Source: Tsuneonella aeria (GTDB lineage Bacteria; Pseudomonadota; Alphaproteobacteria; Sphingomonadales; Sphingomonadaceae). From it: a DNA stretch of 64,000 nt. Location of the stretch: NCBI RefSeq assembly GCF_009827495.1, contig NZ_WTZA01000001.1, forward strand, positions 1,178,001 through 1,242,000, given 5' to 3'. The position numbers and the translations under genes were made by a program. This document shows positions 32,242 through 62,310 of the stretch, one piece after another. Position 1 is the first letter of the stretch; every line of letters begins with the position of its first letter. The notes beneath the pieces were generated by a model. It saw nothing but the letters and a program-made list of their open reading frames with translations. It had not been told where the DNA came from and ran no database searches.

Positions 32242-32285
32242 TGGTGCCGCTTACAGGACTCGAACCTGTGACCCCATCATTACGA
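32242..32285 (-). repeat. att copy A: 3' half of tRNA-Thr(CGU)
   Basis: On the minus strand these 44 bases run from the anticodon loop (TCGTAA) through the T arm (GGTTCGAGTCC) and acceptor (AAGCGGC) to ACCA, as in tRNA-Thr with anticodon CGU. No matching 5' tRNA half lies to the right. The same 44 bases recur at 60,287 and 62,267. Tyrosine-integrase attachment sites typically cover exactly this part of a tRNA gene. The similarity of copies A and C continues ~215 bases to the right (32,286-32,500). Confidence 0.85.
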
Positions 32286-32774
32286 ATGGTAGAGAGCTCC
32301 GCGTAAAACGCCATAAATATCAACAAGATCGTGCCTAAGGCAGCTGGTAGCCATTTCCCCACCCAAACATGACCCAACCGGAGGAAAGTCCGGATTTTCG
32401 GCATTTCCTAATGAAAGCGCTTTAGCTCAACACGTCACGGTGAACTGACCCGGTCTCTGCCCGGCGAAAGTCGGCTTAGCGCCCTCATGTCGGTCATTCC
32501 GGCGACCCGAGCCAATGCCTAAAAGCTGTCGTTCGTTCATCTTGATAATAGCGGCAGCTACGCGCCCTCATAGCGGCCATAAAGTCAGGCGAGGACAAGC
32601 CTGAAAGCTGCCGTTCCAAAGTTTCGTCTGATTGAGGAAAATAAGCCTTCAATCGCAGTAGGTCGGAAAATGTTCTTCGCGATGCGTTTTGGTCGCTGAA
32701 GTGAGGCGCATCAAATCCTCGTTAAGCTCGGCTTTGCCGTAACGTGACCGTGCACGAATTAGATTGCTCCTTCC
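32286..32774. repeat. Non-coding arm adjoining att copy A
   Basis: The first ~215 bases are a diverged direct copy of 62,311-62,525; for instance both contain AAAGTCCGGA, CGGCATTTCCTA/CGGCGTTTCCTA and TGACCCGGTCTC. The rest holds short repeats of the AGCTGTCGTTC / AGCTGCCGTTCC kind and no open frame I would call a gene. Confidence 0.6.
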
Positions 32775-34361
32775 TTATGATTTTCGGATGAGCACCACCC
32801 CAGCAATCACAAGCGCGCCGCCAGCCAGAAGCCAGGATTGATCGACAAGCAATGCGCTAGCCACGATCAATGCGGCAGCTAGAGGGCCTTTCAAGGACTG
32901 ACGCTCATTGCGAAGTCCTGCGAGTTGCTCGACACTGAGCGGATCGAGCTGAACCGGCACATATCCTGACTTTGCGATCGAGTTCGCAGTGGCAAGTATG
33001 TCGGGCAAGGACGCCGACAACCCCAGCAGCTGACCGCGAAGTTTCTTCAAACCCGACCGAGCGCTAGCGAGCGAGAACCGCTCGGCGAGAAGCTCCGTCA
33101 TGATCGGCCGGGTGTCCTCGGCAATGTTATAGTCGGGTGCCAGTGATCGGACGACACCCTCTGCCGTAAGCAAGGTACGCAGAAGGATAGCCAGATCGGG
33201 TGGCAGGACCAGTTGATAATCCCGCAAAAGATCGAAAACGCGGGAAAAAATTTGCGAGAACTCGATTCCAGAAAGCACGGTCCCCCTGAACTCTCCGATC
33301 AAATGATCGAGATCCACCGCGAGCGCATCGCGATCCACCTTCGGCGCCCCCGCCCATGCGAGCAGGACATCCGCGACTTCGCTCGTTTCCTCGCCAGCGA
33401 TCGCAAGCACGAGCCGAACGATCTCGTCGCGCCTCGTCTTGGTGAGAGTCCCGACTGATCCGAAGTCGATGAAGCCGACATCCTGCTCGCCGATCAGGAA
33501 GACGTTACCGGGATGGGGGTCGCCGTGAAATTCGCCGTTCAGGATGATCATCCGCAGGACAGCGTTGGCATAGCTTTTAGCGAAGGCCGCCACCCACGGG
33601 TCGCCCGATGGGCTGCCCAGCGAAGACGCGGGCCTGCCGTACAGGCGTTCCTGAACGTTCACCCGCAGCCCGGTCAGTTCCCAATGAATGGCCGGGGTCC
33701 TGACGCCGATGGTTTCGAGATATGCGCCGATCCGCTCGCAGGCTCGGGATTCCGCAGCGAGGTCCATCTCCCAGGCAAGATTGCGGCCGAAGGTCCGCAG
33801 AAACTCGACTGGCCGGTAGCGCGCGATGTCCGGCGACCGTGCTTCCACGATCCCGGCAAGGCGTATAAGGAGGCGCACATCGGCTTCCATCCGCGCGGCG
33901 GTGCCCGGGCGGCGAACCTTCACGATGACCTCGCTACCGTCTCGCAGCTTGGCGGAATAGGTCTGTGCAATCGAGGCGGACGCCAAAGGCTGTTCGTCGA
34001 ATTCCGCAAAGTCGTTCCGCCAGTCCTCACCCCAGCTTGAAGCAAGTACGGGCTCGATATCTGCGAAGCGCACTGGCGACACCTGATCGTGCAGGGTTGA
34101 GAATGCAGTGATCCAGTGTTCGGTAAACAGATCGCTTCGGGTGGCGAGGAGCTGCCCCAGCTTTATACCAACTGGCCCGATGTCACGAAGGAACGCGACA
34201 ACTGCGGCCGGGCGAAATTCGCGAGGGTCGATGACATTGTTCGAAGAGGGAATAAACCCGAGGGCTCCGGCGAGATTCTTCGCGCCGTGCCTCATTAGGA
34301 TTTGGCCGATCTCCGCGGCGCGAGCGATGCTGCCGATAGGCTTATCCGGGGGCGATGCCAT
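32775..34361 (-). CDS. UbiB/ABC1-type atypical kinase
   Basis: 528 residues from the ATG at 34361, next to the MarR stop. The UbiB hallmarks are present: GPVGIKLGQLLATRSDL (KxGQ motif), the Ala-rich nucleotide loop PLASASIAQTYSAKL, VIVKVRRPG with the catalytic-lysine equivalent, HGDPHPGN and the DFG-type VGFIDFGSVG. A C-terminal double transmembrane anchor follows (LAAALIVASALLVDQSWLLAGGALVIAGVVLI). The family aids ubiquinone synthesis or lipid transport in an ATPase-dependent way. A copy beside a MarR/efflux locus is probably a paralogue of the housekeeping gene. Confidence 0.85.
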   Translation of the reverse strand: MASPPDKPIGSIARAAEIGQILMRHGAKNLAGALGFIPSSNNVIDPREFRPAAVVAFLRDIGPVGIKLGQLLATRSDLFTEHWITAFSTLHDQVSPVRFADIEPVLASSWGEDWRNDFAEFDEQPLASASIAQTYSAKLRDGSEVIVKVRRPGTAARMEADVRLLIRLAGIVEARSPDIARYRPVEFLRTFGRNLAWEMDLAAESRACERIGAYLETIGVRTPAIHWELTGLRVNVQERLYGRPASSLGSPSGDPWVAAFAKSYANAVLRMIILNGEFHGDPHPGNVFLIGEQDVGFIDFGSVGTLTKTRRDEIVRLVLAIAGEETSEVADVLLAWAGAPKVDRDALAVDLDHLIGEFRGTVLSGIEFSQIFSRVFDLLRDYQLVLPPDLAILLRTLLTAEGVVRSLAPDYNIAEDTRPIMTELLAERFSLASARSGLKKLRGQLLGLSASLPDILATANSIAKSGYVPVQLDPLSVEQLAGLRNERQSLKGPLAAALIVASALLVDQSWLLAGGALVIAGVVLIRKS

Positions 34362-34365
34362 GATT

Positions 34366-34857
34366 TTACTCAGCCCCGGCCCGGAGTTGGTCCAGATTTT
34401 TCGATACCCTTTCAAGAATCTGCTGCAACGTTCGCTTCTCGTCGGCGGCAATGTCGCGCCAAAGCAGATCATGAAGCCTATCCGCGGAGCCTCTCAGTTC
34501 GGGCAGCAGATCGTCAAGCTGCTCCGTGAGGATGAGCTGCCACGCTCGCCGATCCGTCTCAGCTCGAAGTCTTTTCATCAGCCCGCGTGCGCAAAGACCT
34601 GCAACCACCTGGCCGATGGTCGCTGATTCCAGTTCCAGTTTCTTGGCGATTTCAGCCTGCGTAAGGGCAGGATCGCGAAGAAGTTGTCCGATGATCCTCC
34701 ACTGTGTCTGATTGAGACCGATCCTGGCGACCCTCGCATCGTACACTCTGCGCGCGCCGCGACTGATCTCGTCCATAAGATAGAGAATGCGGTCATCATC
34801 GTTGATGACCTTCTGCCGACGCTGAGACCGTGACATGGTATCTGGTTTTTCATCCAT
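34366..34857 (-). CDS. MarR-family transcriptional regulator
   Basis: 163 residues, winged-helix MarR fold: TQWRIIGQLLRDPALTQAEIAKKLELESATIGQVVAGLCARGLMKRLRAETDRRAWQLILTEQ, the usual helix-turn-helix plus wing with the D-x-R-A/R pair. It is divergent from the EmrA/EmrB/outer-membrane operon (126-base gap). A candidate operator sits in this gap and again before the hydrolase gene at 40,475. Probably represses efflux and hydrolase genes until a ligand binds. Confidence 0.9.
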   Translation of the reverse strand: MDEKPDTMSRSQRRQKVINDDDRILYLMDEISRGARRVYDARVARIGLNQTQWRIIGQLLRDPALTQAEIAKKLELESATIGQVVAGLCARGLMKRLRAETDRRAWQLILTEQLDDLLPELRGSADRLHDLLWRDIAADEKRTLQQILERVSKNLDQLRAGAE

Positions 34858-34901
34858 AGCGCTGTGTAGTCGGATAGCCTCGGATGCCCAAATGCAAACT
34901 G

Positions 34902-34918
34902 CTAAATGCCTTTACTAT
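34902..34918 (-). promoter_or_regulatory. Candidate MarR operator, copy 1
   Basis: The minus strand reads ATAGTAAAnnnATTTAG, partly palindromic. The same 17-base pattern, identical outside the central three bases, occurs at 40,503-40,519. It lies 44 bases before the MarR ATG and 64 bases before the EmrA ATG, a usual place for a divergent MarR site. Confidence 0.55.
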
Positions 34919-34982
34919 CTGACTCACGGCTCATAGGGCGCGAGACGCGTTCACCTTTTACTGAGGCTGCCGAAAGAGTCAG

Positions 34983-36110
34983 ATGACCGATAACTCCAAC
35001 CAACCGGAGCAGGAGGGCACAACCCCAACGAAACCGCAATCGCGGCGTGGCTTGCGCATCGTGCTAATCATCGTTGGTCTTGCCGTGCTGCTTGGCGGGA
35101 TCTGGTGGTACTACCGGCACGTAACCTACGGACAGTACATGCAGACGACCGATAACGCCTATGTCGCTGCCGACAGCGTCGTTATCTCTTCCAAGGTAGC
35201 GGGATACGTCGAAGAGGTCTTCGTGGGGGAGAACGAGCAGGTTGCTCGCGGCGGAGCCCTCGTACAACTGGATCTGCGGGATTATCAGGCGCAAGCGCAA
35301 CAGGCGCGCGCACAGATCGCTGCGACCCTGGCCGGTGCCGACACAATCCGTTCTCAGGTAGCCGAACAGGATGCAGCCATTCGCCAGGCGCGGGGCCAAC
35401 TCGCCGCCGCGCGCGCAGCACTGGACCTCGCGAACGACCAGGTGGCGCGATATCGGCCCCTTGCCGCGACAGGAGCCGAACCGCGGGAAAAGCTCGACCA
35501 GTATGAGGCGCAGGCGCGGCAAGCGCGGGCCGAACTCGTCGCCGCGCAGGCGGCGGTGGCTGCCGCGACCGCGCGCCGAGGGACCCTGTTCGAGCAGATC
35601 AACCAGACCCAGGCGCAGGCGGACGCTGCTCGCGCTCAGCTGGAAACAGCCGACCTTACGGTTGAATCGACCTTGCTGCGCGCCAGCAAGGCCGGCCGCG
35701 TCGGCGATCTCTCGGTGAGGGTGGGCCAGTTCGTGCAACCGGGTCAACGTTTGATGACGGTGGTTCCGGTAAGGGCGATCTACGTGACGGCAAACTTCAA
35801 GGAAACGCAGGTCGGCCTCATCCGGGCCGGCCAGAGCGTCAGGCTCGAAGTTGACGCCCTGCCAGACCTTGAGATCGCGGGACGAGTGGACAGCATATCG
35901 CCGGGAACGGGCGCGGAATTTTCCATCCTCCCCCCCGAAAATGCCACCGGCAACTTTACCAAGATCGTTCAACGGATACCCGTCCGCATCGCTATCGATG
36001 CTCCCCCTGAAGTGCGGCGTCTGCTCGTTCCCGGGATGTCGGTAGTGGCTACGGTCGACACCCGGAATGCTGCCGGCGAATTGGAAGAGATCTCGAGTCG
36101 GACTCAATGA
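34983..36110 (+). CDS. EmrA/HlyD-type periplasmic adaptor
   Basis: 375 residues: one N-terminal transmembrane anchor (LRIVLIIVGLAVLLGGIWWYYR, 24-45), then the membrane-fusion domain starting TTDNAYVAADSVVISSKVAGYVEEVFV, a long alpha-hairpin (100-220, QARAQIAATLAGAD..), and the beta-barrel part (VTANFKETQVGLIRAGQSVRLEVDA). It bridges the inner-membrane MFS pump and the outer-membrane channel. The stop overlaps the next ATG. Confidence 0.9.
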   Translation: MTDNSNQPEQEGTTPTKPQSRRGLRIVLIIVGLAVLLGGIWWYYRHVTYGQYMQTTDNAYVAADSVVISSKVAGYVEEVFVGENEQVARGGALVQLDLRDYQAQAQQARAQIAATLAGADTIRSQVAEQDAAIRQARGQLAAARAALDLANDQVARYRPLAATGAEPREKLDQYEAQARQARAELVAAQAAVAAATARRGTLFEQINQTQAQADAARAQLETADLTVESTLLRASKAGRVGDLSVRVGQFVQPGQRLMTVVPVRAIYVTANFKETQVGLIRAGQSVRLEVDALPDLEIAGRVDSISPGTGAEFSILPPENATGNFTKIVQRIPVRIAIDAPPEVRRLLVPGMSVVATVDTRNAAGELEEISSRTQ

Positions 36111-37678
36111 CCGAGATAATGGCAGCGCAGGACACTTCGATCGGGCCGGCCGGGAGCCGAAAGAACGCAGACGTGACTGCCTGGGTCGCTGTGGCCGCGG
36201 GCGCGCTTGGCGCCATGCTCGCGACGCTGGACATATCAATCGTCAATTCCGCACTCCCCGTCATTCAGGGCGAGATCGGTGCCACAGGCGCCGAAGGCAC
36301 CTGGATTGCTACGTCATTTCTCGTTGCTGAGATTGTCGTCATTCCACTGAGCGCTTGGCTGGAACGGCTGTTCGGTCTGCGAACCCTCCTCATCATCGCG
36401 GTTAGCGCGTTCACCGCATTTTCTGTGCTATGCGGTGTAGCCACCGACCTTACGACCATGATCATCGGCCGAACGGGCCAGGGCTTCATGGGCGGAGTCC
36501 TCATTCCGACCGCAATGACTATTGTGGCTAAACGATTGCCGCCGCACCAACAGCCAATCGGAATGGCCCTGTTCGGCATGACTGTGGTTCTTGGCCCCGT
36601 GATGGGGCCATTGATCGGCGGCTGGCTGACCGAGAACCTGAGCTGGCACTATGCCTTTTTCGTCAATGTGCCTGTCTGCGCAATCCTGCTGCTCTTGCTG
36701 TTTATCGGGCTGCCTCACGAGAAGCCCAAGTGGCAATATCTCACGGACGCCGATTGGGCTGGCATTCTCGGGCTGATCCTCGGACTGGGCGGTCTGACTG
36801 TTGTACTCGAGGAAGGGCACCGTGAGGAATGGTTCGAGTCCTCACTCATTCGCTGGCTAACGGTGGTGACTATTATCGGCTTTGCCTGTTTGATTTACGG
36901 ACAAGTGAAAGCGCGCAAGCCGGTCTTGAAACTTCGGCTTCTGCTCAATCGACAGTTCGCCAGCGTCGCGATCATGGCGCTCGCCCTGGGCATGGTGATG
37001 TATGGTTCGACCTATGTAATTCCGCAGTTTCTGGCGATCATCTCTGACTATAATGCTTTTCAGACGGGACTAGTCATCTTCTGGATGGGTGTCCCGGCCT
37101 TTCTCCTGATGCCGGTTCTGCCCGTGATGATCCGCAAGGTGGACATCCGAATTGCCGTCGGCACCGGAATGCTGCTGATGGCGATCAGCTGCTTTGTCAG
37201 CACGAGTCTGACCGCCGAATCCGGCGGCGCTGTCTTCACTGAAAGTCAGCTTATTCGCGGGGCCGGAATGGTACTTGTGATGATGTTCCTGAACCAGGCA
37301 ACGGTTGCGTCGGTGGCCAAGGAAGACGCGGGCGATGCCTCGGGCATTTTCAACGCGGCCCGCAATCTTGGCGGATCATTCGCCCTCTCGGCCCTCGCTT
37401 CGTTCCAGGACCAGCGAATTTGGCACCATACGAGGCGCATGGAAGAAACGCTGAATGCGAACAGCGTTTCGCTGCAGACCTATCTCGACGGACTGGCGCG
37501 AAGCCTGGGCGATATGGAACGAGCGATGGCGGCACTCGGCGGCACTCTCCAGCGCGAAGCGTTCATCATGACCTACAATGACGTCTTTCTGGTGATGGGA
37601 CTTCTCACACTCGCGACGGTCCCGCTTGCCCTGTTCCTCAAGCCGCTCCCGAAAAATGTCTCCCTTTCGATGCACTGA
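36107..37678 (+). CDS. DHA2-family MFS drug exporter (EmrB-like)
   Basis: 523 residues, 14 transmembrane helices. The DHA2 motif LATLDISIVNSALPVIQGEIG lies at 32-53; FVAEIVVIPLSAWLERLFGLR and GRTGQGFMGG follow, and helix 5 has the antiporter motif GPVMGPLIGGWLTENLSW. It exports hydrophobic compounds using proton motive force and is coupled to the EmrA gene by a 4-base overlap. Substrate unknown. Confidence 0.9.
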   Translation: MTEIMAAQDTSIGPAGSRKNADVTAWVAVAAGALGAMLATLDISIVNSALPVIQGEIGATGAEGTWIATSFLVAEIVVIPLSAWLERLFGLRTLLIIAVSAFTAFSVLCGVATDLTTMIIGRTGQGFMGGVLIPTAMTIVAKRLPPHQQPIGMALFGMTVVLGPVMGPLIGGWLTENLSWHYAFFVNVPVCAILLLLLFIGLPHEKPKWQYLTDADWAGILGLILGLGGLTVVLEEGHREEWFESSLIRWLTVVTIIGFACLIYGQVKARKPVLKLRLLLNRQFASVAIMALALGMVMYGSTYVIPQFLAIISDYNAFQTGLVIFWMGVPAFLLMPVLPVMIRKVDIRIAVGTGMLLMAISCFVSTSLTAESGGAVFTESQLIRGAGMVLVMMFLNQATVASVAKEDAGDASGIFNAARNLGGSFALSALASFQDQRIWHHTRRMEETLNANSVSLQTYLDGLARSLGDMERAMAALGGTLQREAFIMTYNDVFLVMGLLTLATVPLALFLKPLPKNVSLSMH

Positions 37679-37688
37679 GCCCGAGATT

Positions 37689-39149
37689 ATGCGCCACTTG
37701 CTACCACCGCTTGTCACCATCGCCTTGCTAGCTGGATGCACGGCAGGGCCCGATTATGCAGGCCCCCCGGAAGTTCTGTCAGCAGACACCGGCGATCGCT
37801 TTGTGCGCGCTGGCAGTGATGTGAGCGCATCTGATTTGGTTGTCGCTCAATGGTGGCTGCTGCTCGGCGATCCCGAGTTGACGCGGCTGGTGGAGGCTGC
37901 GCTGTCCGGCAACCCCTCGCTCGCCGCAGCGCAGGCGCGCATTGCCCAGGCACGGGCATCCATCAGGCAAGACCGTGCGAGTCGAATGCCATCGCTTGGG
38001 GCACAGGCCACCACCGTGCAGGGCCGGCTTCCTGGTCTCGACCTTCAAGGCGGGGCGCCCCCCCCGTCAGAGCAAACCAATTCCGACGCAGAAACCGATG
38101 ACTCGCTCAGCTTTTACAATGTGGGCCTTAACGCGAACTGGGAGCTGGAGTTCGCCGGTGGCTCGCGCAGGCGCATTGAGGCCAGCAATGCCCAAGCTGC
38201 TGCAACGGTGGCCAACGCAGAGGACGCAAAGGTCCAGTTGACTGCCCAAGTGGCCAGCACCTACGTCAATTTGCGGGAGGCCCAATTCCGCGCAGAGCAA
38301 TTTGAGGCGCAGATTTCGTTGCAGGAAGAGATCCTGGCGCTGACATACCAACGCTATCAGCGCGGTGCATTGCCGCTTTTCCCGGTAGGCACCGCGAATG
38401 CCGAACTGGAGATGCTCAAGTCACAACTTGCCGAAGCTGAAGCGGATATCGCAGTCCTGTCTGATGCACTCGCTATACTGACCGGACAGGTGCCGGGATC
38501 AGTTGATGCAGCGCTCACGACTGCGCATTCCATTCCCATGCCGCCAGAGCAGGTCGCGATCGGCGATCCGGCAAGCCTGGTGGCGCGTCGGCCTGACATA
38601 AGGGCGGCCGAACGGTCTCTTGCCGCGTCGACGGCGCGGATCGGGGTGGCCGAGGCGGCGCGGTTCCCGAAATTGTCCTTCACGGGGATCCTGGGCCTCG
38701 GCGGATCCTCGTTGGACGACGTTGTCGATGTCGGCGATTTCTCCGCACTCGCGATCCCACGCCTCCAGTGGAATTTTCTGGATTTCGGCAGGGTAGACGC
38801 TGCGATCGACCAAGCCGGGGCGGCGCGCAACGAAGCAGTCGCCAATTACCAGCAGACGGTGCTTCTGGCACTGCAAGACGCCGAACGTGCCTTGGCTCGC
38901 TTCGGCCAGCAGCGTGTGGCGCTCGCTGCCAGTATGCAAATCAAGAAGCAGGCTGACGGCGCGGCGGACCTGAACCGCCAACGTTTTGCCGCAGGAGCGA
39001 TCTCGAAGGCTGACCTCAACCGGGCCCTGCGAGAACAGCAGCAGGCCTCAGCAGACCTCGTCCGGGCAAAAGGTGCCCTTACGCTGGCGTGGATCGCGCT
39101 GCAGAAGTCGCTGGGCCTTGGGTGGCAAGAGCCTGTTCGAGATCAATAG
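37689..39149 (+). CDS. NodT-family outer-membrane efflux lipoprotein
   Basis: 486 residues from the ATG at 37689, with a lipoprotein signal (LVTIALLAGC, Cys near 17). Two tandem OEP repeats of long helices follow; the conserved VARRPDIRAAERSLAASTARIGVAEAARFPKLSFTG segment lies near 295. It forms the trimeric outer-membrane channel of the EmrAB-type pump. Its 3' end overlaps the convergent thioesterase gene by 71 bases. Confidence 0.88.
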   Translation: MRHLLPPLVTIALLAGCTAGPDYAGPPEVLSADTGDRFVRAGSDVSASDLVVAQWWLLLGDPELTRLVEAALSGNPSLAAAQARIAQARASIRQDRASRMPSLGAQATTVQGRLPGLDLQGGAPPPSEQTNSDAETDDSLSFYNVGLNANWELEFAGGSRRRIEASNAQAAATVANAEDAKVQLTAQVASTYVNLREAQFRAEQFEAQISLQEEILALTYQRYQRGALPLFPVGTANAELEMLKSQLAEAEADIAVLSDALAILTGQVPGSVDAALTTAHSIPMPPEQVAIGDPASLVARRPDIRAAERSLAASTARIGVAEAARFPKLSFTGILGLGGSSLDDVVDVGDFSALAIPRLQWNFLDFGRVDAAIDQAGAARNEAVANYQQTVLLALQDAERALARFGQQRVALAASMQIKKQADGAADLNRQRFAAGAISKADLNRALREQQQASADLVRAKGALTLAWIALQKSLGLGWQEPVRDQ

Positions 39150-39573
39150 TCCCGCCGCGCTGATCAAGTGATCCGGTTGACGAGAAGTAGGCGCCCCTGC
39201 CGCTGGCGACCAACTTGCCGTCGGGCTCGAGAACCCGGGTTTCCGCCACCGAAATCTGTCGCCCGAGCTTCACGATCTGTCCGTGAGCAGTGAGAGGTCC
39301 TGAGGTTGCAGAACGGTGGTAATTGACATGCAGATCGGCCGTCGCTCTCGCCGCGACGCCCGCCGCAAGCAGAGTATAAAGCCCGGTGAGGTCGACCAGT
39401 GAAGCCAGGATCCCTCCATGCGCCGACCCAATCATAGGGTTCGACACGATCTCTTCGCGCCATGGCATGGTGATCGCGATTCCCTGGTCGGAGCATGTTG
39501 CAATCTCCAGCCCAAGCCATCGGTGAAACGGCGCTATATGCAGCATTTCCTGCAAGCTCTCTCGATCGATCAT
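39079..39573 (-). CDS. PaaI-type hotdog thioesterase
   Basis: 164 residues, hotdog fold: MIGSAHGGILASLVDLTGLYTL near 48-69 is the PaaI/YdiI signature with the catalytic Asp region, followed by TADLHVNYHRSAT. Hydrolyses acyl-CoA thioesters; substrate not predictable. The C-terminal ~24 residues overlie the NodT gene end and may be non-conserved. Coupled to the hydrolase gene by ATGA. Confidence 0.85.
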   Translation of the reverse strand: MIDRESLQEMLHIAPFHRWLGLEIATCSDQGIAITMPWREEIVSNPMIGSAHGGILASLVDLTGLYTLLAAGVAARATADLHVNYHRSATSGPLTAHGQIVKLGRQISVAETRVLEPDGKLVASGRGAYFSSTGSLDQRGGTIDLEQALATQGPATSAARSTPA

Positions 39574-40475: not shown

Positions 40476-40502
40476 CTCTGGATGGTAGGAAAGGCGCGCT
40501 AA

Positions 40503-40519
40503 ATAGTAAACCGATTTAG
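40503..40519 (+). promoter_or_regulatory. Candidate MarR operator, copy 2
   Basis: ATAGTAAAccgATTTAG on the plus strand, the counterpart of ATAGTAAAggcATTTAG at 34,902-34,918 (minus). It begins 28 bases upstream of the hydrolase ATG, a position where a bound repressor would block the promoter. Confidence 0.55.
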
Positions 40520-40775
40520 TTTGTGGCTCTCGGCTCCGTGTTGGCTGTCCTGCAAGGGCGTTTTAACGACGGCAAAGGTCTATACCAAGAGGGGTTTCTC
40601 CAGATCATTGTCTAATGCACCGGCTTGCGATTCGGTCAGCAGTCGCTGTCCGCTTAATCCGCTCAAAGATATAAAAGCTGCCTTTCCGCTTCCGGCCCAG
40701 GACTCGCCGATTGTGCCCTCGCCCGGGTCCGGCAACAGGACGCCCGAGCGAGGTGGTTAGGAGCGTCAGGAATCA
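40520..40775. other. Intergenic, between hydrolase promoter and nested element
   Basis: No supported gene. Contains short repeat-like pieces (CTGTCCGCTTAATCCGCTCAAAG, TGCCTTTCCGCTTCCGGCCC) similar in style to the small palindromic repeats elsewhere in this interval. A left end of the nested integrase element should lie near here, but I see no tRNA-like att sequence. Confidence 0.35.
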
Positions 40776-41135: not shown

Positions 41136-41212
41136 GTGTGGTGACTCCCAAAAAAAATACGAAAACGAAAAAAACCCCACGAACCAGCTTCAAACTGGCC
41201 CGTGCGGTTAGA

Positions 41213-54155: not shown

Positions 54156-54260
54156 ACGGACCGGCACTGGCCCGGCGCTCCGCATGATTGGACGTCCGCC
54201 TGCCCACCGACAGCAGAGGCTCGACGCACCACGCATCATCGCCGCTGAAGGGGAATGATC

Positions 54261-54888: not shown

Positions 54889-55188
54889 GGGCTTAGATAA
54901 CACTGGCGCATCGAGCCCGCGCAGAAACTCACCCACCCGGTTCAAGTCGCCCGTGTGGAGAACGAAGGGGATGCCTCTCCGCTTGAGCTCGGCGGCAGTT
55001 CGCTCACAGGTTTGCCCATGTCCAAGGTTCACGTCGAGCACGGCGCCCGCGAACACATTCTGATCGAGAGCGTCGAGAGCCTGATCGCAGGTGCTCGCGG
55101 TGACCGCGTCAGCACCCTCGTCCTCGAACGCGAACTTCAGATCCATTGCGATTAGAGGTTCATCTTCCACTATCAGGAAGCAGGTCAT
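54841..55188 (-). CDS. Stand-alone receiver domain
   Basis: 115 residues, CheY-like receiver only: acidic pair VEDEP (7-11), phosphoacceptor D52 (AVLDVNLG), Thr79 (LHTGD) and Lys99 (LSKPL). No output domain. It directly follows the LOV histidine kinase gene (14-base gap) on the same strand, so it is the likely phosphoryl partner. Single receivers of this kind in alphaproteobacteria relay signals in general stress or light pathways. Confidence 0.88.
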   Translation of the reverse strand: MTCFLIVEDEPLIAMDLKFAFEDEGADAVTASTCDQALDALDQNVFAGAVLDVNLGHGQTCERTAAELKRRGIPFVLHTGDLNRVGEFLRGLDAPVLSKPLPAEDVVRYALTLLQ

Positions 55189-55202
55189 TCGATTGCTCCT
55201 GA

Positions 55203-56276
55203 TCAGCGAGCTAAGGGAAGAGAGATTTGCACCCGGAGACCGTCAGGCTCCCAGGTGGTGTCGAGGAAACCATGCGAATGCGTGAGCAACGTCCGGGCGA
55301 TATTAAAACCAGTTCCCGTGGATTGGGGCTCGCCGCTGACCCCAGGCCCGCCTTGCTCCTTCCAGTCCACTACCAACGTTGCCCTGTCGTGCCGGTCGGT
55401 GTCGTGGCGCCAGGAGACATCGATCCGTCCAGTATCGGAGGAGAGCGCTCCATACTTCGTCGCATTCGTTGCCAGCTCGTGGAGCGTGAGCCCGATGGCC
55501 GAGATGGCGTTCGGCTCGGTTCGGACGGTATCGCCAGTGCAATGGATGCGGTCGCCCTCGGGATCGTAGGGCTGCAGCACTGCTCGAATGGCCTGGCCAA
55601 CCTCGATCGTGCCCATAAATGCATCGTCGAGCGTGGGCTCGTAGGACCGTCCCAAAGCCTGGATGCGATCGTTGATCTTCTTGGACACGGGACGCGCATC
55701 CATGGCCCGCCCGGTGATGTTTACGATGCCGCCGATGACAGCAAAAACATTCTTCAACCGGTGGGAGACCTCACGTGCCATCGCCTTGGCGTGGCGTTCC
55801 TCAGCCCTAGCTTCATGGATGTCGGTTACATCCCACTGGCTGCCGAAGAAGTATTTGAGCTTGCCATCGGTGTCGTAGATTGGGCCGAGGTGGAGCGCAT
55901 TCCAGAACGTCGAGCCGTCCTTGCGGTAATTTAAAATTTCGAACACCGCCACGTCCTCGTCGCGGATGGCGTCGCGCATCTTGGCAACCTGGCGTGGATC
56001 GCTCTTCGGGCCTTGGAGGAAGCGGCAGTTGCGGCCGAGTATCTCCTTCGAGGTGTAGCCGGTAAGCTCCTCGAAAGCGGCGTTGCAAAAGATAATCGGG
56101 TCGTCGTCCTGGTTCGGATCGGTCAGGCAGATTGCCATGCGCGTCTGCGCCATAGCCTGCTCGAACAGCAGGCCCGACGCGCCTTCAAAGGGCTCGTAGG
56201 GCTTTGCTGTCCTTTGCGGTAGCGAGGACGCTTGGTGCGCGTCGGTTGGCGGATCGCCATTCTTAGGTGAAGTCAT
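55203..56276 (-). CDS. LOV-domain HWE/HisKA_2 histidine kinase
   Basis: 357 residues from the ATG at 56276. The PAS/LOV domain carries the canonical flavin-adduct Cys in GRNCRFLQG (C84), with LNYRKDGSTFWNAL and YFFGSQWDVT after it. The dimerisation helix has the phosphoacceptor EVSHRLKN (H172) and the N-box LHELATNATKYGAL (N271); WKEQGG is the HWE-type W-x-E. Blue light should form a cysteinyl-flavin adduct and change kinase activity, as in Erythrobacter LOV kinases. Paired with the receiver gene just downstream. Confidence 0.92.
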   Translation of the reverse strand: MTSPKNGDPPTDAHQASSLPQRTAKPYEPFEGASGLLFEQAMAQTRMAICLTDPNQDDDPIIFCNAAFEELTGYTSKEILGRNCRFLQGPKSDPRQVAKMRDAIRDEDVAVFEILNYRKDGSTFWNALHLGPIYDTDGKLKYFFGSQWDVTDIHEARAEERHAKAMAREVSHRLKNVFAVIGGIVNITGRAMDARPVSKKINDRIQALGRSYEPTLDDAFMGTIEVGQAIRAVLQPYDPEGDRIHCTGDTVRTEPNAISAIGLTLHELATNATKYGALSSDTGRIDVSWRHDTDRHDRATLVVDWKEQGGPGVSGEPQSTGTGFNIARTLLTHSHGFLDTTWEPDGLRVQISLPLAR

Positions 56277-56386
56277 TGCACATCGTCTTGCGCTCTTGGG
56301 CGAGCGCGCGGGCGCCGCATGAACATACCGGTGCGACAACGCGATTCAATTTCGCCCGTTCCCATGGGCGACCGCGCTCGGGCTAC

Positions 56387-56412
56387 GACCGCTTTCCACC
56401 CTAACTGCGGAC
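56387..56412. repeat. Small palindromic repeat, copy 4
   Basis: GACCGCTTTCCACCCTAACTGCGGAC: half-sites (GACCGC / GCGGAC) around the shared inner sequence TTTCCACCC. Intergenic, upstream of the LOV kinase gene. Confidence 0.45.
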
Positions 56413-56987
56413 GTTTGAGACTATCGCTGCTGCGCCTGTAAGCTGACCGTCAGCTTCTTTCGCCCACTGGCCAAAAGTCGTCAGGCAGCAAACGACCCCA
56501 TGGCTGCCATCCGAGCACGAGTAGGTTCGGCACCGCCCTTCCAAAGATTCGCTCAACGTGGAGCAAGCACTCAAACCCGTGGTCATCACCTCGCCATTTT
56601 CAGAGCGTCACCTGCAAGTTCATGCAGAGGCCCTTGTTCGTGTCGTAGCGAGCCCGGTGAGCGGGATGGGCAATTTGACGTTGAGGTCAATCCGCGGATG
56701 ATGGCGATCCTGAAACCACCGATGGCCGAAGCAACCGAGCCGCTGCCAACCCGCCTAACAAATTGTCTACAAAGCTGCCAACAACATCGGCGTAGATCAG
56801 CATATCATTCAAGCACGCCAATTGCGAGGACCCGTCGTAGCGCAGCTCGCCGAGCCAACGATCCCCTTGTCAGCTAGGTGCACCTGGCCTGCCGGTTTTG
56901 GCGTCAATCAGCAGGAAGGAACCAACCTTTGAGGCGGGTCGCCGCAAGCTCTGCTTCGGTTCTTTCGACGAGCAATAGGTTTAATCT
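56413..56987. other. Intergenic region, no clear gene
   Basis: About 575 bases. A plus-strand stretch at 56,555-56,690 (KPVVITSPFSERHLQVHAEA in one frame) looks faintly protein-like but has no start and ends quickly; it may be a gene remnant. Nothing else supported. Confidence 0.3.
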
Positions 56988-57311
56988 CTATCGATGCGGG
57001 CCCGAATTGGCATCGTGGAGGAGCAGCATGCGCACGAGCTTCGCGACAGGGCGCGGAACGCCGATCCGCCCGTCAAGCCAGAGGCTTACAGTCGAGCGAT
57101 CCACGCCAATCGCGCCAGCCAGCGCCGACTGCGTCTGGTAGCCGAGTGCGTCCATAGCTAAGCGCAATTCGTCGGGCAGCATCGATGCGAGCAATGGGTC
57201 CATTTTCAGCGTGCTGACGCAGGTCGAAAGCTTCGCAGGTGCGGAATTTTCCGCGCCCGAAGGCTGTTGGTGTGAACTTTTCACAAAACCATTGCAGCTC
57301 GCAGCATCCAT
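56988..57311 (-). CDS. Small helix-turn-helix protein
   Basis: 107 residues from the ATG at 57311, preceded by AGAGGGGG. The C-terminal half (LPDELRLAMDALGYQTQSALAGAIGVDRSTVSLWLDGRIGVPRPVAKLVRML) is an XRE-type helix-turn-helix. The long upstream extension of this frame is antisense to glnK and amtB and not real. It is divergent from glnK across a 171-base gap and could regulate that operon; no partner known. Confidence 0.7.
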   Translation of the reverse strand: MDAASCNGFVKSSHQQPSGAENSAPAKLSTCVSTLKMDPLLASMLPDELRLAMDALGYQTQSALAGAIGVDRSTVSLWLDGRIGVPRPVAKLVRMLLLHDANSGPHR

Positions 57312-57391
57312 AAATCCCCCTCTTTTCAAATCCTTGCAAAGCGAAACCGACCGTCGCCTCTCCGGATTGACGATTGTCCGAAATTTGTGCG

Positions 57392-57442
57392 ATGCACCAT
57401 AAATATCAAGACTAAGTCCCATCAAGCAATACTGAGGTGCAT
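57392..57442. promoter_or_regulatory. Inverted half-sites upstream of glnK
   Basis: ATGCACC at 57392-57398 and GGTGCAT at 57436-57442 are perfect inverted copies, centre to centre 44 bases (about four helical turns), ending 40 bases before the glnK ATG. The halves match the NtrC core (TGCACC / GGTGCA) but with wider spacing than the usual site. A sigma-54 promoter is not evident. Confidence 0.35.
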
Positions 57443-57482
57443 CGCTGCTGTTTCTGAAATCTTGTTTCCGAAAGGGGGAGCA

Positions 57483-57821
57483 ATGAAGCTGATTGTCGCA
57501 ATCATAAAACCGTTCAAACTTGACGAGGTGGTCGACGCCCTCTCCGGAATTGGCGTTCAGGGCCTCACGGTGTCGGAAGTCAGCGGTTTCGGCCGACAAA
57601 AGGGCCACACCGAGGTCTATCGCGGAGCCGAATACACGACGAGCTTTGTTCCCAAGATCCGCATCGAGACTGTCGTGGCCGATGAAGTTGCGCCAAACGC
57701 GATCGAAGCCATCGCTTCCGTCGCGAAGACCGAAGCGATCGGCGACGGCAAGATCTTCACGCTTGATGTCTTGTCCGCGCTGCGAATCCGCACCGGCGAA
57801 ACTGACGAAACCGCGCTTTGA
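57483..57821 (+). CDS. glnK: P-II nitrogen regulatory protein
   Basis: 112 residues from the ATG at 57483 (GGGGGAGCA before it). Complete P-II: MKLIVAIIKPFKLDEVVDAL, T-loop GRQKGHTEVYRGAEY with the uridylylated Tyr51, B-loop KTEAIGDGKIFTLDV and C-loop RIRTGETDETAL. It reports glutamine/2-oxoglutarate status and gates AmtB. The amtB gene starts 11 bases downstream, the normal glnK-amtB arrangement. Confidence 0.93.
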   Translation: MKLIVAIIKPFKLDEVVDALSGIGVQGLTVSEVSGFGRQKGHTEVYRGAEYTTSFVPKIRIETVVADEVAPNAIEAIASVAKTEAIGDGKIFTLDVLSALRIRTGETDETAL

Positions 57822-57832
57822 GGGAGCCAGGC

Positions 57833-59173
57833 ATGACCAGAATATCTGTAAGGTCGATCGTCGCAGTAAGCACTGCCGCATTTGTCGCAACGCCCGCTTT
57901 CGCCCTTCAGGCACCAGTCAAAACGGCTGAGCTCGCGGCGAACATCGCCAAGGGCGATACCGCATTCATGATCTTGGCCACTGTGCTTGTGATGGCGATG
58001 ATCGTGCCCGGCCTCGCCCTGTTTTATGGCGGCCTTGCACGCACCAAGAACATGGCCTCGGTCCTCACGCAGGTCATGGGGGTAGCCGCGCTGACGATGA
58101 TCATCTGGGTCACCTACGGCTATTCGATGGTTTTCGGCGATACGCATAACGCCTTCATCGCCGATTTCGGAAAGGCTTTCTTGCGGGGAGTTACCCCCGA
58201 TTCAGGTGCTGCGACCTTCACCGAGGGGGTGGAGATCCCCGAGTATATCTTCATCGCTTTCCAGATGACCTTCGCCGCGATCACTGCCGCGCTGGTTGTT
58301 GGCGGCACCATGGAAAGGGCCAAGTTTGCGACCATGATAGTGTTCACCGCAATCTGGCTGACGATCGTCTATTTTCCAATCGCGCATATGGTATGGGCGA
58401 CCGGCGGCCTAATCTACGAATGGGGTGCTCTTGACTTTGCGGGCGGCACCGTTGTGCACATCAACGCGGGCGTTTCCGCTTTGATTGGCTGCCTGATTCT
58501 CGGCAAGCGCATCGGTTATCCTAAAGAGCCCATGCCCCCGCACTCACTGACCATGACGCTGATCGGCACCGGGCTCCTGTGGGTGGGCTGGTTCGGCTTT
58601 AATGGTGGTTCGGAACTCGAAGCGGACGGCGTCGCCTCGCTCGCGGTGCTCAACACCTTCGTCGCCACCGCGGCGGGCGTGCTGTTCTGGATGCTAGGCG
58701 AGGCGCTATCGGGCCGCAAGGGGTCGCTGCTGGGCGCCTGTTCGGGAGCTATCGCCGGCCTCGTTGCCGTCACGCCTGCGGCGGGTAATAGCGGGCCGTT
58801 CGGCGCGATCATCCTCGGCGGTGTCGCCGCACTGGTGTGCTTCTGGTTCGTGACCATGCTCAAGCCAAAGCTTGGACTGGACGACACGGCCGACGTCTTC
58901 GGCATCCATGGCGTTGGCGGAATCGTGGGTTCGCTCGGCACGGCCTTCACCATGCTGCCTACGCTGGGGGGACCCGGTAATGCGGAATACGATGCGGGCA
59001 ACCAGTTCGTGATCCAGACAATGGCCGTGGGCGTCGCGATTGTCTGGGCGGGCGTGGGTGCCGCAATCGCCTTTCTCATCGCCAAGCGGGTGACCGGCGG
59101 GCGCGTCTCCGAACAGATCGAGCGCGATGGCCTCGACCTCGGCGAGCATGGGGAACGCGCCTACAATTACTGA
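57833..59173 (+). CDS. amtB: Ammonium transporter
   Basis: 446 residues from the ATG at 57833 (GAGGGAGCC upstream; a TTG at 57818 is less likely). A signal-like N-terminus is followed by 11 helices with DTAFMILATVLVMAMIVPGLALFYGG, FTAIWLTIVYFPIAHMVW, the twin-His pair (HINAGVSA and DVFGIHGVGGIVGS) and WFGFNGGS. Conducts ammonia/ammonium and is blocked by GlnK. Operon with glnK and the TorF-like gene. Confidence 0.95.
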   Translation: MTRISVRSIVAVSTAAFVATPAFALQAPVKTAELAANIAKGDTAFMILATVLVMAMIVPGLALFYGGLARTKNMASVLTQVMGVAALTMIIWVTYGYSMVFGDTHNAFIADFGKAFLRGVTPDSGAATFTEGVEIPEYIFIAFQMTFAAITAALVVGGTMERAKFATMIVFTAIWLTIVYFPIAHMVWATGGLIYEWGALDFAGGTVVHINAGVSALIGCLILGKRIGYPKEPMPPHSLTMTLIGTGLLWVGWFGFNGGSELEADGVASLAVLNTFVATAAGVLFWMLGEALSGRKGSLLGACSGAIAGLVAVTPAAGNSGPFGAIILGGVAALVCFWFVTMLKPKLGLDDTADVFGIHGVGGIVGSLGTAFTMLPTLGGPGNAEYDAGNQFVIQTMAVGVAIVWAGVGAAIAFLIAKRVTGGRVSEQIERDGLDLGEHGERAYNY

Positions 59174-59244
59174 TCACACGAAAAAACCGGCAGGGCCGCG
59201 ATCCCGGCGACAAAGATCCAGGACGCGGACTCTCCAGGATGAGT

Positions 59245-59255
59245 GGGGGGGGGGG
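59245..59255 (+). repeat. Run of 11 G in the leader of the TorF-like gene
   Basis: An uninterrupted tract of 11 G lies 24 bases before the start codon, between amtB and the outer-membrane protein gene. Long homopolymers slip during replication and, in a 5' leader, can vary expression. It is also a frequent sequencing-error site. Confidence 0.5.
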
Positions 59256-59279
59256 AACAATTCAATAGGGGGAATGATA

Positions 59280-60047
59280 ATGCGTTTTTCTCGAGTTGCC
59301 CAGGCGGCTTTGCTCGCCACGACGACGATCACGATGGCCGGCTCAGCGCTGGCCCAGGATATTCTTGATCCGCGGACCACCGACGCGGATTCGCCGGGAG
59401 CCGCCGAGTCAGGCCCGGTATCAATCAGCGCTAACGTTAGCCTCGTCAGCGATTATCGCTTCCGCGGGGTCTCCTTTTCCGCAGAGGATCCGGCGATCCA
59501 GGGCGGAGTGGATTTCAGCCACAAGAGCGGCTTTTATCTCGGTACCTGGGCCTCCTCGGTCGAGGACAGCGCGCTTTACGGCAACACCGAGATTGACATC
59601 TATGCGGGCTGGTCAGGCGATGTCGCGCCCGAATTTAGCATCGATGCGGGCCTCCTCTACTATTTTTATCCCAACGGCGACGACCTTGCGGGCGACAGCG
59701 GCTATTTCGAACCCTACGCCTCGCTCACTAAAGCGCTTGGGCCGGTCGAAGCCACTGTCGGAGCGGCGTACGCTTTCGAACAGGGCTCCGCGCTTCCGAG
59801 CGACAACATCTACGTCTACGGTGATCTAAGTGCAGGCATTTCGGAAACGCCGCTCACCCTATCGGCGCATTTGGGCCATTCAGAAGGCAGCCTCGACTAT
59901 GGCTCGGGCGGCTACCTCGATTGGTCGCTAAGCGCTAGTTACTCTCTTGACATCCTGACCCTTGGGATTGCCTATGTGGATACGGACCTGCCCGATATTG
60001 CCGGTCAGAACTCGACCATCCTGTTCAGCATTGGCGCCGCCTTCTGA
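59280..60047 (+). CDS. TorF-like outer-membrane porin
   Basis: 255 residues from the ATG at 59280 (AGGGGG ribosome site; ATG 59274 overlaps it). Signal peptide MRFSRVAQAALLATTTITMAGSALAQ, then VSISANVSLVSDYRFRGVSFS, the hallmark of the TorF/gcw_chp family, and regular beta-strands ending in AAF. Predicted outer-membrane barrel that appears beside glnK-amtB in sphingomonads, perhaps admitting ammonium or small nitrogen compounds (inference). Confidence 0.85.
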   Translation: MRFSRVAQAALLATTTITMAGSALAQDILDPRTTDADSPGAAESGPVSISANVSLVSDYRFRGVSFSAEDPAIQGGVDFSHKSGFYLGTWASSVEDSALYGNTEIDIYAGWSGDVAPEFSIDAGLLYYFYPNGDDLAGDSGYFEPYASLTKALGPVEATVGAAYAFEQGSALPSDNIYVYGDLSAGISETPLTLSAHLGHSEGSLDYGSGGYLDWSLSASYSLDILTLGIAYVDTDLPDIAGQNSTILFSIGAAF

Positions 60048-60557
60048 GCAATCGCCTTTGGTCGTCAGTTCTGACCGATGCGCGGCTCGTCGTCCTGCAC
60101 CGGCGGTGGTCCATCTTCCTGGTCCCATCGCCGAAAACCGCCTGTCCGCCATCGGCGCAAAATCTGTCTTGCGGCAACCGCTTCGAACGGCAGAAAGCCA
60201 CCCAAACTCGGACCTTAAGGGTGCTCGCTGGTGACCCAGCCGAAGGGCCTCTCCGCTTGACCCAGTGGATTTCCCTGCTGAAAGACTGGTGCCGCTTACA
60301 GGACTCGAACCTGTGACCCCATCATTACGAACTTGAACGTTTTCATGGCTTTCAGAAGGCTTCCGAACGCGTTCCTGGGGAACGAGCTTTCAGGAGAGCC
60401 CTCAATCGAACGCTGCTTAGCGCATCTTCAAAACGCTGAATCGGCGAAAGAAAGCTGAAGGACCGGAGACGCTGACGCTCGCGGCTCTGGTGTCGCTCGA
60501 CAGAAATCTGCGGAAATCGCTTCTGACCCGATCATCAAGTATGATGCGTCGGGAAGC
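60048..60557. other. Intergenic region containing att copy B
   Basis: No gene supported. Left of the core, GGATTTCCCTGCTGAAAG matches GGATTTGCCTGCTGAAAG left of copy C; right of the core the sequence is unlike copies A and C. A plus-strand frame at 60490-60738 is antisense to the HEPN-like gene and rejected. Confidence 0.5.
60287..60330 (-). repeat. att copy B: 3' half of tRNA-Thr(CGU)
   Basis: The same 44 bases as 32,242-32,285 and 62,267-62,310, running from anticodon loop to ACCA on the minus strand. Here similarity to the other copies stops exactly at the anticodon loop, defining the likely exchange point. Confidence 0.85.
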
Positions 60558-61016
60558 TCAGACCTTGGCACGGCTCCTAGCTATCCAGAGGGGGACCTTC
60601 TCAGACACTTCGGTGAGGGTTGCCAACAGGCGGTTCAGCTCAGAGGTCACAGAGGGCTCTGGATCATATCGCGTGAGGAGATACTCACGGGTCTTCGAGA
60701 GCGTTTCCAGATGCAGCACTGTGCGCTTACGCAATTGAAGCCCCTCCCCGAGTGCCAACGCAGTTCTTGAGCCTAGGTCATGGTGCAGGCCTCTGACCCT
60801 CCCGGCCGGCTGACCTGCGGCGAGAAGAAGCGCGTTGAGGTACAACTCGACGGCGTGAATGGCGACCATGCGGAAAGGCGCACGAGACAGCGGTTGGCGC
60901 CGTCTGCCGCACTCGACTAGCTTTTCAGCTGCCTGCCGGTACTCCCGTGCGAGCTCAAGGACTTGCTCAGCCGTTGCCCTCTCGCCGGGGTAGAACTTCT
61001 GACCCTCGACCGTCAT
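60558..61016 (-). CDS. HEPN-like protein
   Basis: 152 residues, all-helical: ATAEQVLELAREYRQAAEKLVECG, then FRMVAIHAVELYLNALLLAAGQPAGRVRGLHHDLGSRTALA, the layout of HEPN (a helix with AE-x-YLKA-like residues, then HDL). The R-x4-6-H ribonuclease motif is not obvious. HEPN proteins often act as toxins or RNases in toxin-antitoxin and defence systems. It lies alone with one other gene between att copies B and C. Confidence 0.5.
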   Translation of the reverse strand: MTVEGQKFYPGERATAEQVLELAREYRQAAEKLVECGRRRQPLSRAPFRMVAIHAVELYLNALLLAAGQPAGRVRGLHHDLGSRTALALGEGLQLRKRTVLHLETLSKTREYLLTRYDPEPSVTSELNRLLATLTEVSEKVPLWIARSRAKV

Positions 61017-61229
61017 GCTGGAGGATTACGCTCGAGTGGCCGAACACTTCGCTAACGGCCGCTAAGCCGCGTGGGGCGGTCCTTTCGCAAAACGACCCCA
61101 AAGCTGCCAAAGGGCGAGAAGGGATCGAGGCGGTGCACCACCGCTCGAGAAGAACTTTCGGGTCGTCATGCGAAGGTGTAGTCGAAAGTGGTACTTTAGG
61201 CCATTCGGAAGGCCGAGAGGTGTCAAAAA

Positions 61230-61961
61230 ATGAGTCCTGCTGTTCCTAACCGGCTTCCGGGGAACGTCCTTCGAATCTCGGTCGACACTGTTGACCCAGT
61301 CCCGGCCAAAGCCCTTCTGGCTTGGGCTGGCAACATAGTTAGCTTTCTCGAAAGCCTGGACGAGTTTCCTGGTGACGCGACAGTGTCGGTCCGCCACGTT
61401 GGAAGTGGCTCTTCCGTCGCCGAACTCGTCTTTTTGGGAATTGGAGCCATGGGCGCCTCACTCAGCGCAATCTCGGCTGTTGGTCTGTTGGCGATTGCCT
61501 ACCAAAAGTCGCTCGAGGATGGCCACCCTCAGACCGCCTCTCCCCTTGTTTCTATAGTCAATGTCTATGGGGGCTCGACAGTCACTGTCAGCCACGGCGA
61601 CGAGGAACCGCTCGTCGTTTATTTGGAAAATGTCCCTGGCTACGAGGAAATTGACTGGGAAAACAGCGCTGGTCTGCCGGGCGTTCAGGTTCAAAAGCTT
61701 CGTGCTCTCGAGAATGCCGAAGCTTTGCAACGACCCGACCGGCCCGCCCTCCTTGTCGGCTCTTTCCTCAGAAAGCTTGATGGCACTCTGATTTTCGAGA
61801 ATCGGATAACGGGCGATCAACTTCTGGCAGTCACGCTAGATGATGACGCGGATGCAGTGGTTCCTCTCGGCGACCTGATCGTTGTTCGAGGCAGTATCGG
61901 CTCGAACGACATTCTCTCGGTGGAAACCATCGAATATATTGAACCGATTCCCACCGCCTAA
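61230..61961 (+). CDS. Unknown membrane-associated protein, 243 aa
   Basis: From the ATG at 61230 (GAGAGGTG upstream). N-terminal ~65 residues (LRISVDTVDPVPAKALLAWAGNIVSFLESLDEF), one hydrophobic stretch AELVFLGIGAMGASLSAISAVGLLAIAYQ (68-96), then a beta-rich C-terminal part (VYGGSTVTVSHGDEEPLVVYLENVPG; FENRITGDQLLAVTLDDDADAVVPLGDLIVVRG). No family recognised. Divergent from the HEPN-like gene; together they are the whole coding content between att copies B and C. Confidence 0.55.
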   Translation: MSPAVPNRLPGNVLRISVDTVDPVPAKALLAWAGNIVSFLESLDEFPGDATVSVRHVGSGSSVAELVFLGIGAMGASLSAISAVGLLAIAYQKSLEDGHPQTASPLVSIVNVYGGSTVTVSHGDEEPLVVYLENVPGYEEIDWENSAGLPGVQVQKLRALENAEALQRPDRPALLVGSFLRKLDGTLIFENRITGDQLLAVTLDDDADAVVPLGDLIVVRGSIGSNDILSVETIEYIEPIPTA

Positions 61962-62266
61962 AGGGTCGCTTACGCCGCGCTCTGAGGTCGATCTTGGGCT
62001 GCGAGCCGAACACGTCCGACGGAAAGCGAACAAAAGGGAGGACGTTTTCCACTCATTTCCGGAGTTAGGGGCCCGACGCTCGATCTGCTGAGAGCTGAAG
62101 TTCAGAAACCGCCTTAGCCTTAGAAGAAGAAGCTCGATGGGTTTTAAGTGGGTATAGCGTGGGTCAGCGTCGGAATCCGGCTCAAAACGCCCCAAACACT
62201 ACCCAAGCTACCTTCCAAGCCGAAAGGCCGTTGAGCATAAGACTCTGGATTTGCCTGCTGAAAGTC

Positions 62267-62310
62267 TGGTGCCGCTTACAGGACTCGAACCTGTGACCCC
62301 ATCATTACGA
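62267..62310 (-). repeat. att copy C: 3' half of tRNA-Thr(CGU)
   Basis: Identical 44-base core to copies A and B. To its right the minus strand reads CTCTCTAC before the anticodon loop instead of a pairing 5' anticodon stem, so it is not an intact tRNA either. The right arm (to ~62,525) is a diverged direct repeat of the arm at copy A. Confidence 0.85.

Follow-up and report, generated by a model that had tools for sequence, protein, structure and literature searches.

Stacks of genomic islands at RNA genes are already known. In Dehalococcoides, islands lie in tandem downstream of one RNA gene, ssrA, with copies of the gene's 3' end as their boundaries; some carry no integration genes and have been proposed to be mobilizable in cis by accretion (PMC3146451). 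Bordetella petrii has the tandem islands GI1-GI3, with related integrases and at tRNA genes, whose single and composite excision was reported to be demonstrated by PCR (PMC2717098). Up to six copies of SGI1 have been described in tandem at one attachment (att) site (PMC2297512). Here we analyse a stack of five island segments (S1 to S5) in Tsuneonella aeria, bounded by displaced 3' halves of a tRNA-Thr(CGU) gene. The stack begins inside a 64,000-base stretch (the window, C1:1178001-1242000, where C1 is the contig holding it) and continues beyond its right edge; the assembly comprises 2.75 Mb in two contigs, C1 and C2. It is a tandem tRNA-gene island array parted from its tRNA gene, and such a split of a large stack is the less usual feature. 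We favour, with a probability of about 0.84, repeated island integration at tRNA-Thr, followed by an exchange between the newest island, E, and a GST-like gene, with inversion of about 1.25 Mb.

The stack resembles the Dehalococcoides arrays in its tandem islands, its 3'-end copies and its integrase-less member. As described, those arrays involve a serine recombinase, tmRNA and a 20-bp repeat, whereas here we find tyrosine integrases, tRNA-Thr and a 45-bp repeat, with the stack parted from the gene (PMC3146451). The B. petrii islands share with it the tandem layout, related integrases and tRNA targets, but are described as clc-like, whereas here no relaxase was seen in the scanned proteins and excision is a prediction from sequence (PMC2717098). 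Tandem SGI1 is one element repeated at thdF or a second site, as its report presents it, whereas mostly different elements are stacked here (PMC2297512). Large inversions tied to the tyrosine integrase of a mobile element are reported in Thermococcus, where they were shown experimentally; here the second exchange involves four shared bases and is read from sequence (PMC5495485). As with the tRNA-gene islands of the Islander collection, a regenerated target and a displaced fragment mark the island ends, except that the two ends of the newest island lie on different contigs (PMC4383910). Methods that need both ends close together would presumably miss E, as searches for a tRNA beside its displaced fragment would presumably miss the whole array. 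No report of this stack was found in the literature searched, which comprised sources outside subscription journals.

The locus thus offers a large stack of unlike islands, carrying respiration, efflux and anti-phage cargo by homology, kept mainly by one integrase subfamily and including a 2-kb segment without an integrase. It is also a concrete case of an array parted from its tRNA gene since its newest island is the breakpoint of an apparent inversion. Near symmetry of that inversion about parB would link island growth to replication-balanced genome rearrangement.

Displaced tRNA-Thr copies, segments and integrases

Three exact copies of the tRNA-Thr(CGU) 3' half lie in the window in one orientation, so that the plus strand shows the tRNA sequence in reverse complement:

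32242..32286, minus strand: displaced tRNA-Thr 3' half, most distal and presumptively oldest, distal boundary of S1
60287..60331, minus strand: second copy, boundary of S1 and S2
62267..62311, minus strand: third copy, boundary of S2 and S3

A search of the whole assembly added three copies on C1, at 1256924, 1270348 and 1286478 (window-equivalent 78,924, 92,348 and 108,478), making six exact 45-base copies, all in one orientation. The 45 bases common to these and the intact gene start in the anticodon loop and run through CCA (tRNA positions 32-76); individual copies match the intact gene exactly over 46-49 bases. An exact repeat of 45 bases is far beyond chance, and a reversed-pattern control gave no match in 11 genomes. 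The sole other match to the 3' half in the assembly is a tRNA-Arg gene, 79% identical. No true tRNA-Thr 5' half accompanies any displaced copy. A 71-base 'tRNA-Thr' called by ARAGORN at 32242-32312 was rejected, its 5' half being island DNA, unlike the 76-base gene on C2.

A first-pass annotation of the window had described three 44-base halves in one orientation, none with a 5' half. The copies, their orientation and the missing 5' halves stand, the ARAGORN call notwithstanding; the length is 45 bases. The 28.0-kb and 2.0-kb spacings it gave are correct, and a third segment does extend past the right edge, with S3 reaching window-equivalent 78923. Its placement of the intact tRNA-Thr to the right of the window on the same stretch was mistaken. 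The intact 76-base gene lies at C2:412,394-412,469, adjoining tRNA-Cys; to the right on C1 are the three further copies, part of an island and core genes, and only tRNA-Gly was found in the 60 kb searched to the right of the window. The annotation had held that the lack of an intact tRNA downstream would speak against insertion. None lies there, probably because the newest island is split between C1 and C2, and through that split island the insertion reading survives. As assembled, the array has no intact tRNA at its proximal end, and gains one only when the proposed inversion is undone.

The copies bound segments of 28,045 (S1), 1,980 (S2), 16,657 (S3), 13,424 (S4) and 16,130 (S5) bases, with a GC fraction of 0.57-0.62, compared with 0.68 in the core stretch left of the window and 0.635 and 0.643 in the direct flanks. 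Their main features in the window are:

32287..60286, no strand: S1, 28.0 kb; by Pfam, MarR, HlyD, MFS and OEP efflux genes, an integrase, a primase-like protein and further transporters and enzymes
41213..42367, minus strand: S1 tyrosine integrase, with Phage_integrase and Arm-DNA-bind_3 domains
32287..32400, minus strand: distal end of S1, with a pair of TTGGGT-type motifs spaced 11 bases apart
60157..60286, minus strand: tRNA-side end of S1, TGGGT-type motifs
60332..62266, no strand: S2, 2.0 kb, without integrase
62137..62266, minus strand: tRNA-side end of S2, motif
62312..62420, minus strand: distal end of S3, resembling that of S1

Tyrosine integrases, 42-92% identical to one another, occur in S1, S3, S4 and S5. 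A divergent one, of 416 amino acids and free of stops, lies just past the last copy, in E; S2 has none. Identity to the S1 integrase is 92% for S3, 52% for S5, 43% for S4 and 26% for E. Single islands in three relatives (genomes G003, G008 and G009) sit between tRNA-Thr(CGU) and a displaced copy, and their integrases are related to those of the stack (G003 62% identical to S1; G008 83% and G009 80% to S4).

The island ends are also shared. In all five segments and in the G003, G008 and G009 islands, a TGGGT-type motif lies 48-61 bases beyond the end of the tRNA. At the other side, S1, S3, S4, S5, G008 and G009 have one 79-91 bases ahead of the distal core; these distal motifs are doubled, 11 bases apart, in S1, S3 and S5. 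None was found at the distal ends of S2, E and G003, and E has neither the tRNA-side nor the distal motif. Such a motif, picked after inspection, is expected by chance at about 0.0015 per 8-base stretch. The motifs look like putative integrase arm sites. The tRNA-side-only motif of S2 is arranged as would be seen in a deletion chimera, and the lack of motifs in E appears in line with its different integrase. The proposal of repeated integrase insertion at one tRNA gene, made in the first-pass annotation, gains from the integrases in four of the five segments, the shared end motifs and the islands with related integrases at tRNA-Thr(CGU) in three relatives of the genus and near tRNA-Thr(CGU) 3' halves elsewhere in the Sphingomonadales.

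The newest island and the broken GST-like gene

E is about 10.5 kb long and lies in two places: its first 3.3 kb beside tRNA-Thr on C2, the other 7.1 kb, including the integrase, on C1. The part after the intact tRNA (C2:412572-414661) is 95% identical to G009:2075925-2077980, and the part beyond the integrase that follows the last copy (C1:1289559-1292993) is 98% identical, reversed, to G009:2084223-2080789. Both belong to one G009 island, situated there at tRNA-Trp. The displaced tRNA-Trp fragment of that island, missed by the pattern search, was read by eye and shows about 7 differences in 44 bases. Among the matches listed for a whole E elsewhere in the T. aeria genome, only short or weak ones were seen, the longest of 423 bases at 67% identity (C1:1458277-1458699).

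Beyond E stand core genes B on C2, from 415814, and core genes A on C1, from 1293665. B and A are adjacent in all five relatives given (G003, G004, G002, G006 and G009), with one extra gene between them in G004. Where the two stretches of homology meet in G003 and G002, compared base by base, they overlap by 4-8 bases. The meeting point falls within a GST-like gene, intact in relatives, of which C2 has the first 12 codons and C1 the remainder; both pieces are joined to E, and CAGC (4 bases) is shared at the break. By its sequence, the E/GST break has the form of a reciprocal exchange with no visible loss.

The end of C2 and the start of C1 are 2.8-4.5 kb apart in three of the five relatives searched (G003, G004 and G002, the only ones in which both markers match). 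If the genome is one chromosome in the order C1-C2, the E/GST exchange implies an inversion of 1,246,766 bases (or, equally, of the rest). Fission of the chromosome into two circles was considered and is less likely, C2 end and C1 start being neighbours in those three genomes. An attempt to read the inversion from markers alone was given up: gene order is heavily shuffled in the genus, and 16 of 25 markers match at least one of five genomes. ParB serves as a proxy marker of the origin. The midpoint of the inverted segment lies 5.3 kb from a strong parB match, with arms of 618 and 629 kb, and by simple geometry the chance of a midpoint so near parB is about 1%.

The favoured sequence of events would run as follows. 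Tyrosine integrases of one subfamily would insert repeatedly at the part of a single tRNA-Thr(CGU) gene that extends from the anticodon loop to the 3' end, each insertion restoring the tRNA with island DNA and pushing the older 3' half and older islands outward. The order of insertion, from oldest to newest, would be S1, S2, S3, S4 and S5, with S2 an integrase-less remnant or passenger. A sixth island, E, with its divergent integrase, would have inserted last. E and the GST-like gene elsewhere on the chromosome would then have exchanged partners at the 4 shared bases, either by chance or helped by the integrase, and the resulting inversion of about 1.25 Mb, nearly symmetric about parB, would have parted the stack (C1) from tRNA-Thr (C2).

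The break region has further repeats. A repeat of 15-21 bases surrounds small E genes (C2:414996 and 415694; C1:1292979 and 1293360; G009:2078799 and 2079706). Integron attC sites at the breakpoint, where AACGACCCCATTGCGGAC repeats occur on both sides, were tried as an explanation and rejected: two were folded on both strands and scored z -0.2 to 0.5 against shuffles. Repeat recombination was dropped as the cause of the break because no attC-like fold was seen in these two and the nearest repeats lie 80-300 bases from the cut. Across the GST/E junction (locus L012 on C2, ~415735-415860), an 11-base perfect inverted repeat (CTACGGACACC / GGTGTCCGTAG) was read by eye, GST contributing one arm and E the other.

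The E body itself, 95-98% identical at tRNA-Thr here (locus L011:4653-10993) and at tRNA-Trp in G009 (C1 2075827-~2085750 of that genome), comes with integrases that are only 36% identical. Its integration module seems to have been swapped.

Alternative histories and points against the inversion

Several observations weigh against integration followed by inversion. An integrase is missing from S2, and the shared end motifs are missing from E. The present mobility of the islands, excision included, is predicted from sequence. A weaker ParB match also occurs on C2 (C2:257108-257650, in a 753-amino-acid open frame near three integrase genes); this locus is perhaps another integrated element. For the link of C1 end to C2 start, the C2-start marker matched in none of the five genomes. 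Both contigs end in inverted fold-back overlaps, and the junctions are known from the assembly of one isolate alone. In G004, G002, G006 and G009, and not in G003, tRNA-Thr is followed at 5-68 kb by a core block that is found here at C1:1386108-1391808, about 100 kb past the stack on the wrong side, so that one further rearrangement or more is needed. The core that here lies left of the window (C1:1158001-1178000) is placed beyond that block in relatives, so the distal flank of the stack was also rearranged, perhaps earlier.

The same final structure, with its exact core junctions, would arise if the events ran in reverse order: in a rare exchange, a circle of E would have entered the GST-like gene, after which the integrase of E would have recombined att with tRNA-Thr and flipped 1.25 Mb. 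The stop-free 416-amino-acid integrase of E suits this order, and in Thermococcus an integrase is reported to drive inversion between att sites (PMC5495485). It needs a prior circle integration away from att, however, which is rarer than the ordinary kind, and the E of G009 sits ordinarily at tRNA-Trp; we consider this order unlikely. That E in GST recombined its att site with the stack at tRNA-Thr over a distance of 1.25 Mb, and that the 45-base cores still permit reversal, is more doubtful again; if true, the stacked att copies would be switch points for origin-symmetric inversions. A stack that truly ends at the intact tRNA-Thr, with the C1 and C2 neighbourhoods misconnected in assembly, is suggested by the two contigs with fold-back ends. 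Such a misjoin would nonetheless need to have severed both E and GST at one point each, with flanks matching relatives at 4-8 bases of overlap, and by accident to have centred the segment 5 kb from parB. The within-genome junction matches listed, from a comparison in which 40 first-look candidates per genome were scored, are short or weak (at most 118 bases at 76% near the C2 join, 44 bases near the C1 join), and we hold assembly error to be quite improbable.

Neither flank of the stack is the usual tRNA-Thr neighbourhood, as expected had a composite circle left tRNA-Thr and inserted elsewhere on C1. This history earns very little credence, leaving as it does the E halves at tRNA and stack, and the reciprocal cut in GST, unexplained. 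The idea that a tRNA fragment was passively duplicated, and that the copies are no integration scars, draws on the integrase-less S2, but is hardly tenable in view of integrases in four of five segments, common end motifs and like-built single islands in three relatives. Repeated integration at tRNA-Thr with a later exchange at E remains the reading we adopt.

Each contig ends (loci L014-L017) in an inverted near-copy of its own start (76 and 125 bases), a pattern resembling artefacts of fold-back reads. Ribosomal RNA was rejected as the cause of the contig gap: an Rfam search of 25.5 kb at the ends gave no match, and none was seen within the window.

Related islands, cargo and neighbouring genes

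In the genus, 11 genomes were counted with two core variants, the tRNA-Thr of G001, G004 and G005 differing at 4 bases. Extra 3'-half copies number six in this genome, two in G005 and one each in G003, G008 and G009; none was found in G001, G002, G004, G006, G007 and G010. Copies thus occur in 4 of the 10 other genomes and are absent from 6, with the tRNA-Thr site differently filled, except that the site of G001 is not judgeable, its contig ending 199 bases past tRNA-Thr inside an arm of the kind seen in S1 to S5. The comparison with empty sites in related genomes that the first-pass annotation had proposed therefore has an answer: other genus genomes show copy-free or single-island tRNA-Thr sites. 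One S5 gene has 94.6% protein identity to its copy in the G003 island, whereas the DNA of the tRNA-Thr locus is only 79% identical, a difference that fits recent transfer. In G005, two variant-core 3' halves lie 5.6 kb apart with island-like arms (C3:107796 and 113372, locus L115), on another contig of this draft assembly than its tRNA-Thr; the pair is possibly a second stack. The genes called here had no match in the G005 or G001 stretches compared (tblastn, E 1e-10).

Among 15 loci with related integrases, counted over the DNA examined around each integrase, a tRNA-Thr(CGU) 3' half was found at 5 of the 9 with 52-62% identity and at none of the 6 with 39% or less. The five belong to Sphingopyxis (twice), Sphingomonas, Novosphingobium and a Rhodospirillales metagenome-assembled genome. 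In a Sphingopyxis metagenome-assembled genome (L079:994-1069 and 18786), 6 of 41 bases, lying in the T arm, distinguish the tRNA-Thr 3' half from the displaced copy, a difference that points to the island as the source of the present 3' half of the tRNA. A phage origin of the integrases was considered and rejected: 24 loci on viral contigs were found, all at 36% identity or less. Neither the exact 41-base core nor a relative of the S2 protein was found on any viral contig.

Pfam scans covered 18 of 26 proteins in S1, 2 in S2, 6 of 19 in S3, 8 of 13 in S4 and 8 of 16 in S5, with genes from a simple caller. Further genes in the window are:

40776..41135, minus strand: S1 119-amino-acid protein adjoining the integrase, 85% identical to its S3 counterpart
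42540..45182, minus strand: S1 880-amino-acid protein with a RepB-primase domain, 54% identical to the S3 copy
45585..46339, minus strand: two small S1 module genes (128 and 94 amino acids) with relatives in S3 and S5
61230..61961, plus strand: S2 cargo, 243 amino acids, near-orphan
62716..63670, minus strand: first S3 genes, 153 amino acids and a globin-like protein of 166 amino acids

S1, S3 and S5 have in common a module of integrase, a protein of 119-130 amino acids (without Pfam or PHROG match in S1) and small genes. Replication-type genes, which together with an integrase would be one mark of phage satellites (PICI/P4-like), accompany it: RepB-primase-domain proteins in S1 and S3 and a VapE-like protein in S5; no primase or VapE-type gene was seen in S2 or in the scanned proteins of S4. 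No relaxase, which would point to an integrative conjugative or mobilizable element, appeared in the scanned subset of S1-S5 proteins; the S5 HerA protein reached 20.6 bits against TrwB_AAD_bind (cut-off 20.5), far weaker than its HerA match. No PHROGs match to phage structural or packaging genes was found among the 10 proteins run.

The cargo differs from segment to segment. Pfam further names an amino-acid permease, an amidohydrolase, a sensor kinase and an ammonium transporter in S1. At the sensitivity of the search made, which spanned 5.8 billion proteins, the S2 protein has only 2 relatives apart from itself. S3 carries an alternative oxidase, a globin-like protein and a two-component system, the oxidase and two-component genes lying beyond the window. 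By Pfam and PADLOC, S4 has a LysR regulator, a Cons_hypoth698 protein and a transposase, and S5 a Schlafen-type helicase (scanned as a fragment of 449 of 645 amino acids ending at the locus edge) with SIR2 and HerA proteins.

A nitrate-respiration cluster borders the stack at 12700-31900 of the window, with narG-like (18785-22543) and narH-like (17265-18788) genes, a fused MFS gene (22555-25344), molybdenum cofactor genes and NnrS. In G008, too, parts of this cluster flank the tRNA-Thr island, there in the opposite orientation.

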